The notes below the pieces were generated by a model, which saw only the letters and a list, made by a program, of their open reading frames with translations, ran no database searches and was not told where the DNA came from. Source: Terriglobia bacterium (GTDB lineage Bacteria; Acidobacteriota; Terriglobia; UBA7540). From it: a stretch of 64,000 bases of DNA. The first letter of the stretch is position 1. The number at the start of each line of letters is the position of its first letter. Below are positions 35,707-61,882 of the stretch, piece after piece. The translations under genes were made by a program, and so were the position numbers. Location: positions 1-64,000 of the forward strand of contig JAIQEZ010000006.1 of the NCBI GenBank assembly GCA_020073545.1. Direction: 5' to 3'.

Positions 35707-35744
35707 TACTGACGCCTGCACAATATGGTGCCACCCATTCTCTG

Positions 35745-35770
35745 TAGGGGCGCATGGCCATGCGCCCCTA
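35745..35770. repeat. 26-bp perfect palindrome (REP-like)
   Basis: Two perfect 13-base arms (TAGGGGCGCATGG and its complement) with no loop. A close relative with CAAGG in place of CATGG and one mismatch occurs inside the protease gene at 52912-52937. I interpret both as members of a dispersed palindromic repeat family. Confidence 0.7.
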
Positions 35771-36386
35771 GGCCTGGGCGGGGAGCGCCGAGAATCCAGC
35801 GGTCGCAAACCGCCGCTACAGCAGCGGTTGTCACTATCGTTTGCAGCACTCAATAATGTGATCTCCGGAAGGACGTCAGATTGGGGCGGATCGAGATGAG
35901 CAGGAGGGAGTTGGCAAGGGTCGAGGTGCTGGCGCGGGTGAGGAGCGCCGGCTGTCATCCTGAGGAGTCCCGCCCTGCGGAGCGACGAAGGATCCCCGTA
36001 TTACGTTTGCCCCAACGGCGCAGATTCCCACTCCCTGGCGATGGTCCAGCGTGAACGGGTATTCCCGCACGACAGCGGCGTAACCAATGCGCCGCTGCCG
36101 GTCAACGATTGCCAGTTTGCCCGTGGATTCGAAAGCGCGAATTGAGGAAGAACCGCCCCAATGCATCGGGGCAGCTTTCAGGTTCAAATCCTCGCGTTCT
36201 CATCCGGCGGGCCAAAGCACAGCATGGAGTAAAGAAGCGAGCGGAGGCAAGCCGCGGAGTGGCGGTCCCGCTCAGGGGGATGGGCCATGGCTTCCCCGCG
36301 GCTGTCGCCCGGGCACGGCCGAAGGTCCGCCGATCTTAATGGCGGACGGGTCAAAGGAGCCCGTGGGCCACAATCTATCGGCCCTC

Positions 36387-49572: not shown

Positions 49573-50435
49573 GCATCGCAATTCCAACTCTCGATCGGCG
49601 TTCCATGCTGGACCCCATGCTGCCGCATGCGGCCGTGATTCAGGGGATTAATCCGGAGGCCAACGGCATTTCCACGTTTTCCCTGGAATTCGTGGATCCC
49701 GCCGAGGCGGCTGCCTACCGGTTTTCGCCCGGACAATTCAACATGCTTTACCTGCCGGGCTTTGGCGAAGTGGCTATCTCCCTCAGTTCCGATCCGGGCG
49801 AGCCGCAGGTGCTGGGACACACCATCCGCTGCGCGGGCAGCGTGACGCGCGCCTTGGGCCGCCTGCGTGTCGGGGATCTGGTGGGGGTCCGCGGGCCTTA
49901 TGGGAGCGCGTGGCCACTCGAAAGGGCCCAAGGGAAGAACCTGGTACTGGCGGCGGGGGGGATTGGCGTGGCGCCCTTACGGCCGGTCATCCTCTCCGTG
50001 CTGCGCCAACGCGATCAGTATGGCCGCGTCCTGCTCCTGTACGGCGCGCGCATGCCCGCCGACCTGCTTTACCACGAGGAGATCGGGCGCTGGCGCCAGG
50101 GCGGCATCGAAGTGCACATCACGGTGGATCTGGCGGATGAAAACTGGAAGGGGCAGGTCGGCGTGGTGCCGCAGCTCTTCTATCGCATCCGGGTCGATCC
50201 CAAGCAGACACTGGTGATGACTTGCGGGCCGGAGATCATGATGCGCTTCGTGATCTACGAAGCCCTGGCCCGGCGTATTCCCAAAGAATCCATCTTTATT
50301 TCCATGGAGCGCAACATGAAGTGCGCCGTGGGTTTCTGCGGCCACTGCCAGTTCGGGCCCACGTTTATCTGCAAGCAGGGTCCGGTGCTCAACTTTGCGG
50401 TCATCGAGCCGTTCTTTGGCAAGGAGGACTTCTAA
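49569..50435 (+). CDS. hydG: Group 3b hydrogenase gamma subunit (FAD/NAD(P)-binding, HydG-like)
   Basis: A 288-residue ferredoxin-NAD(P)+ reductase-like diaphorase subunit. The flavin-domain motif is RFSPGQFNMLYLPGFGEVAI, the NAD-binding glycine motif LAAGGIGVAPLRPVI, and the C-terminal [2Fe-2S] site MKCAVGFCGHCQFGPTFIC. It links hydrogenase electrons to NAD(P)(H). It overlaps hydB by 4 bases and precedes hydD by one base. Related proteins are dihydroorotate dehydrogenase electron-transfer (PyrK-like) subunits, but the context fixes the assignment. Confidence 0.92.
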   Translation: MSIAIPTLDRRSMLDPMLPHAAVIQGINPEANGISTFSLEFVDPAEAAAYRFSPGQFNMLYLPGFGEVAISLSSDPGEPQVLGHTIRCAGSVTRALGRLRVGDLVGVRGPYGSAWPLERAQGKNLVLAAGGIGVAPLRPVILSVLRQRDQYGRVLLLYGARMPADLLYHEEIGRWRQGGIEVHITVDLADENWKGQVGVVPQLFYRIRVDPKQTLVMTCGPEIMMRFVIYEALARRIPKESIFISMERNMKCAVGFCGHCQFGPTFICKQGPVLNFAVIEPFFGKEDF

Positions 50436-50436
50436 G

Positions 50437-51225
50437 ATGTCGCCGGAAACGCGCCCCAAGCTGGCGGTCTACAAATTCTCCTCTTGCGATGGTTGCCAGT
50501 TGGCGATTCTGAGCCTGGAAGATGAGCTGCTGAGCCTGGTGGGTGAAGTGGAGATCGCCTACTTCTTGGAAGCCCGTTCGCAGACGTTGGAGGGCCCTTA
50601 TGATGTGACCCTCGTCGAGGGTTCCGTGAGCACGGCGGAGGATATCGAGCGAATCCACAAGGTTCGCGAGCAATCGAAGTATTTGATCACCATCGGCGCC
50701 TGCGCCACGGCAGGAGGAATCCAGGCCCTGCGCAACTGGGCGGATGTGGGCGAATTCGTGCGAGCGGTTTATGCCACGCCCGCTTACATCAACACGCTGG
50801 AACAATCCACGCCGATTTCGGCGCACGTGGCTGTGGATTTTGAACTCAATGGTTGCCCCATCAACAAGTATCAAATCCTGGAGGTGCTCACGGCTTTGCT
50901 GGTGGGGCGTGCGCCCCATCTCCCCCGCCACTCGGTCTGCCTGGAGTGCAAGCGGCGTGGCACGTCCTGCGTGATGGTTTTAGGGGGAATCCCGTGTCTG
51001 GGTCCCCTTACGCAGGCCGGATGCGGCGCCTTGTGTCCCGCCTACAATCGCGGCTGCTATGGTTGCTTTGGGCCGATGGAAAGTCCCAACCCGGATTCGT
51101 TCGCCGGTTTCCTGCTGAAGAACGGTACGCCGCGGGCTGAACTCATCCGCATGCTGCGCGGCTTCACCGGTTATGCGGAGGTATTTCGCTCGGCGGGGGA
51201 CAAGCTCGCGAAGACGTCGCCCTAA
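50437..51225 (+). CDS. hydD: Group 3b [NiFe] hydrogenase small (delta) subunit
   Basis: A 262-residue iron-sulfur small subunit from ATG 50437, with AAGGAGG about 10 bases upstream. Cysteines for the proximal cluster are in KFSSCDGCQLAIL and GACATAGGI. Further clusters lie in CLECKRRGTSC and LCPAYNRGCYGCFGPMES. There is no Tat signal, consistent with a cytosolic group 3 enzyme. It partners the large subunit at 51436, separated by a 210-base gap that holds no recognised gene. Confidence 0.93.
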   Translation: MSPETRPKLAVYKFSSCDGCQLAILSLEDELLSLVGEVEIAYFLEARSQTLEGPYDVTLVEGSVSTAEDIERIHKVREQSKYLITIGACATAGGIQALRNWADVGEFVRAVYATPAYINTLEQSTPISAHVAVDFELNGCPINKYQILEVLTALLVGRAPHLPRHSVCLECKRRGTSCVMVLGGIPCLGPLTQAGCGALCPAYNRGCYGCFGPMESPNPDSFAGFLLKNGTPRAELIRMLRGFTGYAEVFRSAGDKLAKTSP

Positions 51226-51435: not shown

Positions 51436-52749
51436 ATGGCCGGCGAGATGGCGAAAGGCGAAAAAACCGTAAAGATCGAGTACCTGACCCGTGTGGAAGG
51501 CGAAGGTGGCATCTATGTACGCGCGGAGGGCGGGGAACTGCGTGACGTCAAGCTGAATATCTTCGAGCCACCCCGCTTCTTCGAGGCCTTCCTGCGCGGG
51601 CGCCATTTTCAGGAAGTGCCGGACATCACCGCGCGCATTTGCGGCATCTGTCCGGTGGCCTATCAAATGAGTTCCGTGCACGCCCTCGAGGCTGCTCTGG
51701 GCGTTCGCCCCGGCCCGGAGATCCGTATGCTCCGCCGCCTGCTCTATTGTGCAGAGTGGATAGAAAGCCACGCGTTGCACATCTATCTCCTCAACGCGCC
51801 GGATTTCTTGGGGTATGAGAGCGCCGTGGCGATGGCCGCCGACCACCCCCAGGAAGTCGAGCGGGGATTGCGCTTGAAGAAGATCGGCAACGGCCTGCTG
51901 GATCTTCTGGGTGGACGCGCCACCCACCCGGTTTCTGTCTGCGTAGGGGGCTTCTACAAAGTTCCCCGCCGGAAGGAGCTTGAGAAGCTCCGGGAGGACT
52001 TCCTCTGGGGCTTGGAGGCTGCCCAGGAAACCGTGACGTGGGTTTCGGGCCTCACCTTCCCCGAATTCACACCCGAGTATGAGTTTGTTTCGGTCTCGCA
52101 TCCCACCGAGTACCCCATGAACGAGCGGCGCATCATCTCCTCCGTGGGCCTGAATATTGATCCCGTCGAGTATGAGCAGATTTTTCTGGAAGAGCACGTG
52201 GCGCATTCCACCGCGCTGCACTCCGTGCGCGCCGATCGAGGCTCGAGCTACTTCGTGGGGCCGCTGGCGCGCTTGAATCTGAACTTTGACAAACTCTTAC
52301 CCCGTGCCCAGGCAGCCGCGCGTTCCTGCGGAGTGTCGTGGCCGTGCCATAACCCTTTCATGAGCATCGTGGCACGCGCCGTCGAACTGGTGCATGCCTT
52401 CGAGGAAGCGCTGGGCATCATTGATGCCTACCGGGAGCCAGCCGCGAGCCGCGCGGAAATTCAGGTCCATGCCGGAGAAGGGTGCGCAGCCACGGAAGCG
52501 CCGCGCGGGCTTCTCTATCACCGCTACCGCATCAATGACCAGGGCTTAGTGGAAGCTGCCAAGATTGTCCCACCGACCTCCCAGAACATGCGACGGATGG
52601 AAGACGATCTCCGGCAGTTGCTCCCGGGCGTGCTGAATCAGCCCGACGCGGAAATAGCGCGGGTCTCCGAAAACCTGGTTCGCAGTTACGACCCATGTAT
52701 TTCCTGCTCGACGCATTTCCTAAAGCTGAGGTTCGACCGTGGCCGGTGA
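51436..52749 (+). CDS. hydA: Group 3b [NiFe] hydrogenase large (alpha) subunit
   Basis: Catalytic subunit of 437 residues. The N-terminal nickel-ligand motif is RICGICPVAYQMSSVHALE (near residue 62) and the C-terminal one is YDPCISCSTHFLKLRFDRGR. The residues after the final His are the short propeptide cut off by the maturation protease encoded next. The start has GAAAGGTGG upstream (near 51420). It carries out the H2/H+ reaction with electrons to or from NAD(P)(H) through HydD, HydB and HydG; some relatives also reduce sulfur. Confidence 0.94.
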   Translation: MAGEMAKGEKTVKIEYLTRVEGEGGIYVRAEGGELRDVKLNIFEPPRFFEAFLRGRHFQEVPDITARICGICPVAYQMSSVHALEAALGVRPGPEIRMLRRLLYCAEWIESHALHIYLLNAPDFLGYESAVAMAADHPQEVERGLRLKKIGNGLLDLLGGRATHPVSVCVGGFYKVPRRKELEKLREDFLWGLEAAQETVTWVSGLTFPEFTPEYEFVSVSHPTEYPMNERRIISSVGLNIDPVEYEQIFLEEHVAHSTALHSVRADRGSSYFVGPLARLNLNFDKLLPRAQAAARSCGVSWPCHNPFMSIVARAVELVHAFEEALGIIDAYREPAASRAEIQVHAGEGCAATEAPRGLLYHRYRINDQGLVEAAKIVPPTSQNMRRMEDDLRQLLPGVLNQPDAEIARVSENLVRSYDPCISCSTHFLKLRFDRGR

Positions 52750-53425
52750 CGTGACGAGCGGCGGCCGTGCAGAAGCGGCGGTGGGGCGCCCGCGCCTGAT
52801 GGTCTTGGGCTGCGGGAACCCTTTCGCGGGCGACGACAATGTGGGGCTTGAACTCGTTCGCCGCCTGCGGGCCCGCGGCAGCTGCGGGTGCGAGTTTCGA
52901 GACCTGTCGGGTAGGGGCGCAAGGCCTTGCGCTCCTACGTTTCCTCGCCGCGGTTACGGATATGAATTCCGAGCGCTGCCGGAGGGAGGCCTCGGTTTGC
53001 TGGAGCTCTTTGACCGCGCCGACATCATTCTGTTTGTCGATGCAGTCCTGAGCGGCGCGCCTCCGGGGACTCTTCACTTGGTTCTCTTGCCCGCACGCGA
53101 AGTGGTGCCGCGGGCGCTGGGGTCCGTCTCGAGCCACGGGTGGGGGTTGGATGAGGTCTTAAGGCTGGCGCTTGCCTTGGGGCGAAAAGTCCCGCGACTC
53201 ATGCTCCTGGGGGTCGAATTGGAGAGTGTCGCGCAGGGGACTCGGCGCACGGCTCCGGTCGACGCGGCCCTGGAAGTGGTGATCGAACATTTCCCCCAAC
53301 TTCAGGCAGCACTGCAGGATAGCGAGTCTCCTCTCTGGTCGGGCCATCACAGTTACCCGCCCCGGGGCAGCCCCTTTCTCGAATTCTCAGAGGCCATCCC
53401 AGTTTTGGTGCGGACGGGTGGGTGA
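52739..53425 (+). CDS. Hydrogenase maturation protease with in-frame palindromic insertion
   Basis: HycI/HyaD-family endopeptidase, expected to clip the C-terminal tail of the adjacent large subunit. It has 228 residues from GTG 52739, overlapping hydA by 11 bases. The core reads VLGCGNPFAGDDNVGLELV, then ALPEGGLGLLELFDRADIIL and SHGWGLDEVLRLAL, with metal ligands in the usual places (Asp in AGDD, Asp near FVDAV, His in SHGWG). Between strands, residues about 58-75 (GRGARPCAPTFPRRGYG) are encoded by the palindrome at 52912. The C-terminal 30 residues are also longer than usual. Confidence 0.85.
   Translation: MAGDVTSGGRAEAAVGRPRLMVLGCGNPFAGDDNVGLELVRRLRARGSCGCEFRDLSGRGARPCAPTFPRRGYGYEFRALPEGGLGLLELFDRADIILFVDAVLSGAPPGTLHLVLLPAREVVPRALGSVSSHGWGLDEVLRLALALGRKVPRLMLLGVELESVAQGTRRTAPVDAALEVVIEHFPQLQAALQDSESPLWSGHHSYPPRGSPFLEFSEAIPVLVRTGG
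52912..52937. repeat. Palindromic repeat inside a coding sequence
   Basis: Two 13-base arms, TAGGGGCGCAAGG and CCTTGCGCTCCTA, with one mismatch. It is of the same family as the intergenic copy at 35745. It is flanked by imperfect 22-base direct repeats starting at 52889 and 52961 (15 of 22 identical, 72 bases apart), which suggests a 24-codon in-frame insertion. Confidence 0.7.
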
Positions 53426-59759: not shown

Positions 59760-61313
59760 ATGCCCGAAACGAAGGACCTTAGACGGCGGATCACGATCGA
59801 TCCCATCACGCGTCTGGAAGGCCATGGAAAGATCGAGATCTTCCTCGACGAGCGCGGGAGCGTCGAGCGAGCCTTCTTCCAGGTCCCGGAGTTGCGTGGG
59901 TTTGAGAAGTTCGTGCAGGGTCGCCCCGCCGAGGAGATGCCGCAGATCACCTCGCGAATTTGCGGGGTGTGTCCCACCGCCCATCATATGGCGTCCACGA
60001 AAGCGTTAGACGGCCTTTACCGGGTCACGCCGCCGCCGGCTGCCAGGAAGATTCGCGAGCTGTTCTATTCCGCCTTCGTCACCGAAGACCATGCCCTTCA
60101 CGTGTACTTCCTGGGTGGTCCCGATTTCATCGTGGGACCAAAGAGTCCGGCCGCGGAGCGGAACGTCCTCGGCGTGATCGCCAAAGTTGGGGTGGAAGTC
60201 GGCCAGAAAGTGATCGGCATGCGGCGCAAGCTGCGCGAAATGATGACGGCGATCGGCGGCAAACCCGTCCATCCGGTGCTGGGATTGCCGGGGGGAGTCG
60301 CCAAACACATCAGCCCCAGCGAGCAGGAGAAGATTAAGCAGGTCGCTAAAGAGGCGGTCGACTTCGCGAGCTTCACCCTCGAAACCTTTAACAAACTGGT
60401 TTTGCAGAATAGCGAGTACGTGGACCTGATCCGCTCCGACGCTTTCACCCATCGCACCTACTACATGGGAATGGTCGATACGGCCAACCGCGTGAATTTC
60501 TACGATGGCTCGGTCCGCGTGGTCACGCCGGAAGGGAAGGAGTGGAAGAAGTTCGCGGCGGAGAAGTATCTCGACTACATTGCCGAGCATGTGGAGCCCT
60601 GGAGCTATGTGAAGTTCGCTTACCTCAAGCCGCTGGGCTGGAAAGGTTTCACGGAGGGATCAGAGAGTAGCGTTTACTGCGTGGCGCCGCTGGCTCGACT
60701 GAATACCGCGGAGGGCATGGCCACGCCCCTCGCGCAAGAAGCGTACCAGCAGTATTTCGCCGCACTGGGCGGCAAGCCGGTTCACCACACTTTGGCGAAC
60801 CACTGGGCGCGCGTTATCGAGCTCCTCTACGCGGCCGAGCGCCTGAAAGAACTTGCCGAGGATCCTGAGATCACAGATTCGCAAATACGCGCTTTACCCA
60901 CTGAAGCGCCCCGCGAAGGTATAGGCGTCGTGGAGGCCCCCCGCGGCACCTTGATTCACCATTACCAGACGGATGAGAAAGGAATCATCCAGAAGGCCAA
61001 CATGATCGTGGCCACCCAAAACAATGCCGCGCGCATTGCTATGAGTGTAGAGAAGGCCGCCAAGGGACTCATATCCAATGGAAACGTCTCGGAAGGCATC
61101 TTGAACATGGTGGAGATGGCTTTCCGAGCCTACGACCCCTGCCACGGCTGCGCGACACATTCTCTGCCCGGAAGTATGCCCCTGCTCGTCCGCGTCCACG
61201 ACCACCGAGGCGATGTGCAGACAACGCTGCGACGGGATTGGGATGGAAAGATCATTCGGGTCTCGGGAATCGGGGTTCGGATTTCGCCCGAATCCCGAAC
61301 CCCGAATCCCTAA
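59760..61313 (+). CDS. mvhA: Group 3c [NiFe] hydrogenase large subunit (MvhA-like)
   Basis: Catalytic subunit of 517 residues. Nickel-ligand motifs are SRICGVCPTAHHMASTKAL near residue 64 and YDPCHGCATHSLPGSMPLLV near residue 460. After the last His come about 50 residues, which the maturation protease should remove, at least in part. The final 18 residues (RVSGIGVRISPESRTPNP) are encoded by an inverted repeat at 61263 and have no family counterpart. The start has GAGGTG upstream, 23 bases after the inverted-repeat element. It forms the H2-activating part of the Hdr-Mvh complex. Confidence 0.93.
   Translation: MPETKDLRRRITIDPITRLEGHGKIEIFLDERGSVERAFFQVPELRGFEKFVQGRPAEEMPQITSRICGVCPTAHHMASTKALDGLYRVTPPPAARKIRELFYSAFVTEDHALHVYFLGGPDFIVGPKSPAAERNVLGVIAKVGVEVGQKVIGMRRKLREMMTAIGGKPVHPVLGLPGGVAKHISPSEQEKIKQVAKEAVDFASFTLETFNKLVLQNSEYVDLIRSDAFTHRTYYMGMVDTANRVNFYDGSVRVVTPEGKEWKKFAAEKYLDYIAEHVEPWSYVKFAYLKPLGWKGFTEGSESSVYCVAPLARLNTAEGMATPLAQEAYQQYFAALGGKPVHHTLANHWARVIELLYAAERLKELAEDPEITDSQIRALPTEAPREGIGVVEAPRGTLIHHYQTDEKGIIQKANMIVATQNNAARIAMSVEKAAKGLISNGNVSEGILNMVEMAFRAYDPCHGCATHSLPGSMPLLVRVHDHRGDVQTTLRRDWDGKIIRVSGIGVRISPESRTPNP
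61263..61310. repeat. Inverted repeat forming the 3' end of mvhA
   Basis: Two arms of about 21 bases, with TCGGGGTTCGG at 61272 pairing with CCGAACCCCGA further on, and a 4-6-base loop. It lies within the last codons of mvhA and ends 14 bases before the next ATG. The arms resemble other dispersed repeats in this genome segment. Confidence 0.65.
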
Positions 61314-61324
61314 CCCCAACTTTC

Positions 61325-61882
61325 ATGACTCCGCAGATCCGCATTTTGTGTTTGGGTAACGAGCTCCTCGCTGACGACGCCTTTGGTCTGGCCGCGGCGG
61401 AAGAGCTCCGAAAGCGACTCCCAGACATGGAAGTGGTCTTCACTACCGAGGCGGGCTTCCGTCTGATCGACTATCTGTCTGATGCTGAACTTCTGGTCGT
61501 GGTGGATAGCATTCAAACCACGACCGTCCCTCCTGGAACCCTCTTGGTGGTCCGAAACGCGGACATTACGTCCCAGTCTGCCCCTTCACCGCACTACGTC
61601 GGACTTTTTGAAACTCTTCAGTTGGCCAGGAAATTGCTCCTTCCTGTCCCAGAGGAGGTTATAATTCTGGCGGTGGAGGCGGTGGACTGCATGACGCTCG
61701 GTGGCGAGATGCATGCAGCGGTGAAATCGGCCGTGGGGCTCGTGGTCGAACTGGTCCACGAGATAGCGCGGTGCTGGAAACCGACCGGGGCCGATCCCGA
61801 CGGCAACTCCGCGCACGATTTGCAGCATGCCCTTGCGGCCGTGTCAGCCCGTTGCGGGCCAGACCGGTTCACAGTCATTTGA
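61325..61882 (+). CDS. Hydrogenase maturation protease
   Basis: HyaD/HybD-family endopeptidase of 185 residues, placed to process the adjacent MvhA-like subunit. Start ATG 61325; the upstream frame overlaps mvhA. Conserved elements are LCLGNELLADDAFGLAAAEE (first metal ligand), LLVVVDSIQTTTVPPGTLLV and a His in SAPSPHYVGLFETLQLA. It is shorter and more typical than the protease of the 3b cluster, and lacks any palindromic insertion. It is probably specific for the 3c enzyme. Confidence 0.9.
   Translation: MTPQIRILCLGNELLADDAFGLAAAEELRKRLPDMEVVFTTEAGFRLIDYLSDAELLVVVDSIQTTTVPPGTLLVVRNADITSQSAPSPHYVGLFETLQLARKLLLPVPEEVIILAVEAVDCMTLGGEMHAAVKSAVGLVVELVHEIARCWKPTGADPDGNSAHDLQHALAAVSARCGPDRFTVI

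Follow-up and report, generated by a model that had tools for sequence, protein, structure and literature searches.

In-frame insertion of a REP-type palindrome, along with a target duplication, in a hydrogenase maturation protease gene of an Acidobacteriota bacterium

The window analyzed here is the whole stretch of 64,000 nucleotides at positions 1 to 64,000 of contig JAIQEZ010000006.1 from a soil Acidobacteriota bacterium (Terriglobia; assembly GCA_020073545.1). It includes a [NiFe]-hydrogenase locus in which the gene located directly 3' of the large subunit gene encodes a maturation protease and is interrupted by a palindrome of the kind that usually lies between genes (Table 1). In the sequence-only reading of this DNA, the interrupted product was taken for a HycI-type protease, and this identification is borne out: the ORF scores 80 bits against the NCBIfam profile TIGR00072 (cut-off 47) and matches Pfam PF01750, and HybD (1cfz) is the first structural match of its AlphaFold model (pTM 0.72). 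The family profile, the fold, and the metal-ligand residues of the HybD/HycI endopeptidases (1cfz, 2e85) are thus all present; what sets the protein apart from these enzymes is that helix 1 and strand 2 are separated by 24 additional residues. The large subunit retains a C-terminal extension beyond DPCISCSTH, as expected in a substrate of the protease, and its C-terminus would be the candidate cleavage site for the insert-bearing enzyme. When the large subunit was used as the query, the closest named relative was PMYF01000324.1 (MAG Acidobacteria fen_180), followed by JAIQGA010000013.1 (Terriglobia MAG), both of which place the window in Acidobacteriota; a protein scan of the genome contigs with the protease as the query yielded no match. 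Another hydrogenase region of the window (59760-61882) comprises a second large subunit (59760-61313) and an ORF (61238-61882) for a maturation-protease-like protein of its own; where the two meet, the sequence CCCGAATCCCGAAC forms a short tandem repeat (61287-61317).

Table 1. Coordinates of the features of the hydrogenase locus and of related palindrome copies
Feature	Position	Strand	Remarks
Hydrogenase small-subunit type protein (Oxidored_q6)	50395..51225	+	PF01058
[NiFe]-hydrogenase large subunit	51436..52749	+	PF00374; C-termini compared
Hydrogenase maturation protease gene (HybD/HycI type)	52739..53425	+	228 aa, holds the insert; TIGR00072, PF01750, 1cfz
Direct repeat copy 1	52867..52910, core 52889-52910	+	encodes ..SCGCEFRDLS; in register with copy 2, offset 72
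REP-type palindrome GTAGGGGCGCAAGGCCTTGCGCTCCTAC	52911..52938	.	28 bp, one mismatch; read in frame within GRGARPCAPT
Direct repeat copy 2	52939..52982	+	encodes ..YGYEFRALP; predicted strand beta-2 (75-80 in the model)
72-nt (24-codon) insertion relative to orthologues	52911..52982 (equivalently 52867-52938)	+	from alignments
Second palindrome copy, GCATGGCCATGC subtype	35744..35771	.	intergenic; no convincing gene across it
REP in the MetRS linker	L014:1501-1528 (G000), L149:801-828 (G001), L211:1501-1528 (G016)		same subtype, same place

Alignment of the protease gene with the orthologue from a genome of the same genus (G006), in which the empty site is readable at the base level, reveals a clean insertion of exactly 72 nt, and the reading frame passes through it without a stop, in agreement with the earlier estimate of about 24 codons added in frame. 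The added residues had also been predicted to be unique, and indeed, none of about 40 orthologues aligned at the protein level, which come from the same family and from further classes and phyla, has the 24-residue insert; it is confined to the window protein, that is, to a single genome and a single species. The same alignments rule out ancestral residues that were lost elsewhere. The imperfect 22-bp direct repeats noticed previously (15/22 identical) extend, still in register, over 44 nt (27/44). The two copies are identical to each other at 22/33 positions (33% different) and match the empty site of G006 at 28/33 (copy 1) and 27/33 (copy 2). As each copy matches this single-copy site, the insert consists of the palindrome (28 bp) and a duplication of the target (44 nt). 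A bare 28-bp insertion would shift the frame; the frame is kept because 28 + 44 = 72.

The insertion was thought to be tolerated, and the comparisons agree with this assessment. Outside the insert, divergence from the G006 orthologue (dN 0.17, dS 0.76; dN/dS about 0.2 (0.23)) shows, as judged from the coding sequences, that the enzyme is under purifying selection, and relative to the G016 outgroup, the window gene (nucleotide identity 0.572) is no more distant than its insert-free G006 counterpart (0.555). D32/D33, D101, and H133, which correspond to the metal ligands of HybD, are all intact in the alignments, and protease activity is probably retained. In the AlphaFold model, residues 48-74, between a helix (31-47) and a strand (75-80), have low confidence, with pLDDT below 50 for residues 48-53 and 64-72; the strand is formed by repeat copy 2 (YEFRAL), and in the model of the insert-free G006 protein (pTM 0.84), EFREL (37-41) forms the same strand. 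A surface loop, which had been named earlier as a point to check by modelling, is compatible with this prediction, under which the insert would lie in a flexible loop that links helix 1 to strand 2. We read the models as suggesting that the duplication provides a spare strand and that the remainder loops out.

The palindrome, GTAGGGGCGCAAGG-CCTTGCGCTCCTAC, with arms complementary at 13/14 positions, had been described as 26 bp long, with a close relative between genes; the palindrome and its intergenic relative at 35744-35771 are real, but the length is 28 bp (52911-52938). A census of copies by pattern searches and covariance-model searches supports a mobile palindrome: the genome contains 9 sites with at most 3 mismatches to the consensus, compared with 0 for the reversed control pattern, and about 19 sites according to the covariance model (E<0.01). 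Dinucleotide shuffles of the window contained 0 matches to the palindrome at the same stringency. A 29-bp subtype has four more members in the genome, and another subtype was found as well. The copies are both intergenic and intragenic, and their flanks are mutually unrelated, so that the element ends at GTAG and CTAC. REPs usually exceed 100 copies per genome, and the present genome contains fewer.

The closest likeness is with GTAG REPs, which, according to Di Nocera et al. 2013 (PMC3733652), are short GC-rich palindromes that start with GTAG, dispersed and located beside RAYT genes, with some copies in frame within ORFs, others closing ORFs with the TAG of GTAG, and with hosts that include genes for tRNA synthetases and DNA repair. 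The element described here is a GC-rich palindrome within the 20-40 bp range with a terminal GTAG, has many dispersed copies, and is accompanied by RAYT genes flanked by the same repeat. These RAYT-like genes (IS200-like HUH transposases, TnpAREP), located on contigs C98 and C163, have the same palindromes both within the coding sequence and next to it (upstream and inside in C98, inside and downstream in C163) and keep the MPNHxHGI motif; they match the NCBIfam profile REP_Tyr_transpos with E-values of 4e-15 and 3e-19, respectively, which is below the curated cut-off. In two loci (L005:1844-1871 and L007:1501-1528), the REPs lie within the RAYT coding sequence just 3' of MPNHxHGI, with decayed palindromes alongside. 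The relationship between REPs and RAYTs has been set out by Nunvar et al. 2010 (PMC2817692) and by Di Nocera et al. Unlike the classical REPs, in which GTAG is unpaired at one end only, nearly all copies here have GTAG paired with CTAC, without an unpaired tail; we therefore file the element as a variant of the GTAG REP that acts like a REP and is presumably mobilized by a RAYT. A further difference is the 44-nt target duplication in two genes.

The sequence-only reading had instead likened the insert to the coding palindromic elements (RPEs) of Rickettsia, though in a different phylum. The closest counterpart is, however, the intragenic GTAG-type REP; such REPs had been reported by 2013 from several phyla, with copies in repair and tRNA-synthetase genes (Di Nocera et al., PMC3733652), so that the change of phylum is not novel in itself. 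A dedicated RPE-like element selected for intragenic sites would account for in-frame copies in many unrelated genes, including genes of known function, and, like the RPEs, the palindrome is read in frame within a protein that is apparently functional. However, RPEs are of about 100-150 bp (about 150 bp in PMC10969869) with conserved encoded peptides and lack a link to RAYTs, whereas the present element differs in sequence, is only 28 bp long, has unrelated flanks, and is represented by many intergenic copies; moreover, both open reading frames of the palindrome are used (VGA.. and xRGA..), the remaining one being closed by the TAG in GTAG. We consider an RPE-like origin highly improbable; the element is a REP-type one because the RAYT genes of this genome carry and adjoin the same palindrome. 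No GTAG family of Acidobacteriota is named in the available part of Di Nocera et al., where Acidobacteria appear only as hosts of transposases flanked by TIRs (PMC3733652), and our literature search found no description of REPs with a target duplication or of intragenic REPs in Acidobacteriota.

Apart from the protease, in-frame REPs in the same genome were detected in the genes for MetRS, a family-B DNA polymerase, a DEAH/MrfA-type helicase, and the two RAYTs. In relatives, they were detected in LeuRS (editing domain), MnmG (two), MutS2, EtfA, and several protein kinases, and Pfam matches either span the REP or stand on both sides of it. In the family-B DNA polymerases (L012:1501-1529, L131, L125), the same loop, after VDSLYV, varies between genomes: G000 has a REP there, G001 has a long repeat-derived insert that is unrelated, and the bases of G006 are unread; the loop might be an insertion hot spot. 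The Ser/Thr kinases of relatives (L100, L174:801-867, L175) carry REPs between DFGLAKL and the TSPG..GT segment of the activation loop, and L174 has two different REP subtypes there in tandem. The variable linker of the MrfA-type helicase (L011) includes a second repeat-like stretch (around 1440-1500, encoding DSRFRGND) that adjoins the REP; the apparent ISEP..ISEP repeat of this protein was not counted as a target duplication, as the linker varies freely among relatives.

Among 81 REP sites scanned for flanking duplications, a clear duplication was found at 2 only, in the MetRS and protease genes of the window genome (scores 20 and 13, reached by 0.2% and 0.8% of the control positions, respectively; offset 72 in both), so that target duplication is not general. 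The MetRS insert is likewise exactly 72 nt long and comprises an in-register 44-nt duplication and a 28-bp palindrome; in the G001 gene, the offset of 72 is weakly shown (score 8, second best). The MetRS inserts bear on the possibility of an assembly or binning artefact, which has to be entertained for a single contig of a metagenome-assembled genome, given that palindromes and direct repeats are difficult to assemble. Such an error is very hard to reconcile with the observations: the protease insert is in frame, its duplicate copies are mutually diverged, the same architecture recurs in MetRS of the separately assembled G000 and G001, and a REP occupies the same place in G016.

The repeat copies also allow for a two-step history, in which a 44-nt tandem duplication arose and diverged first and a REP was later inserted at the junction of the duplicates. 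In the protease, the copies are 33% different over 33 nt compared with a single change in the palindrome, so that the ages of the two might differ, and in MetRS, the copies differ at 7/33 (G000) and 14/33 (G001) positions whereas the palindrome is perfect. Under this scenario, however, the exact junction must have been struck twice, in two genes, both with an offset of 72; furthermore, duplicating 44 nt without a REP would throw the gene out of frame and leave a broken intermediate, and no genome with the duplication only was seen. We regard the two-step history as rather improbable and a single event of duplication and insertion as likely, with less certainty than for the insertion itself because divergence is greater between the copies than in the palindrome. 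That a REP-type palindrome was inserted in frame along with a duplicated target is well supported.

The near-perfect state of the MetRS palindromes suggests yet another possibility, namely, that the palindrome is kept for a role at the nucleotide level, as an mRNA hairpin, a protein-binding site, or a hot site for re-insertion. In three species, the palindrome is identical (G000 and G001, 28/28) or nearly so (G016, 27/28), all nine third codon positions being the same in every pair, whereas the flanks are 63-74% identical and the upstream third positions only 39-45% identical among the same-genus genes compared with G000, which is near saturation. The binomial P against the flanks is 3e-5 to 2e-3 for the three intact MetRS copies, a rough test that is indicative only. 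Conversion by other copies is an unlikely source of this identity because the MetRS subtype occurs a single time in G000 and, as an exact match, a single time in G001. The converse evidence comes from both genes: the MetRS insert is decayed in G010 (24/28) and absent from G003 and G007, the protease copy is found in one species only, and at the protease, the mRNA stem forms but local RNA folding is no stronger than in shuffles (z -0.75). The MetRS genes with the insert do not form one clade in the tree, and this distribution may reflect loss, recurrent insertion at the same site, or exchange. Altogether, selection that maintains the palindrome is a possibility suggested mainly by MetRS, and we view a nucleotide-level role as doubtful. 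A broader proposal would hold that REPs in this acidobacterial family enter genes with a fixed 44-nt duplication, producing 72-nt inserts, and that some of them, as in MetRS, are kept near-perfect from genus to genus by selection that acts on the nucleic acid itself and so represent domesticated coding REPs; this we put forward tentatively, as somewhat less plausible still.

The scenario that we favor, with considerable confidence, is that a REP was inserted in the protease gene within this bacterium's own lineage, with a 44-nt target duplication that kept the frame, and that the enzyme stayed under purifying selection. A non-autonomous 28-bp REP of the type associated with IS200-like HUH transposases, probably mobilized by a RAYT, would have entered the gene, most likely after the split from the closest sampled relative. 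Insertion together with, or into, a 44-nt target duplication would give the net 72 nt through which the frame survives, and the protein would become 24 residues longer, the addition lying between helix 1 and strand 2. Of the duplicated strand, the second copy would then take the native position, and the first copy, along with the peptide encoded by the REP, would become a flexible surface loop. At odds with this scenario, IS200/IS605 elements are not known to produce sizeable target duplications upon insertion (PMC2817692).

Intragenic REPs as such are already known (PMC3733652); the departures here are the fully paired GTAG end and the target duplication. With the filled site, the empty site, and the duplicated target all readable, this locus is a base-level example of a REP entering the gene of a functional enzyme. 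It suggests how such an event might be survivable: the target duplication would leave the interrupted strand present once in intact form and restore the frame. The mechanism of REP dissemination has been called unresolved (PMC8266576), and recurrence of a 44-nt target duplication would bear directly on how REPs move. The long-kept palindrome in MetRS makes the acquisition of a role by intragenic REPs testable.
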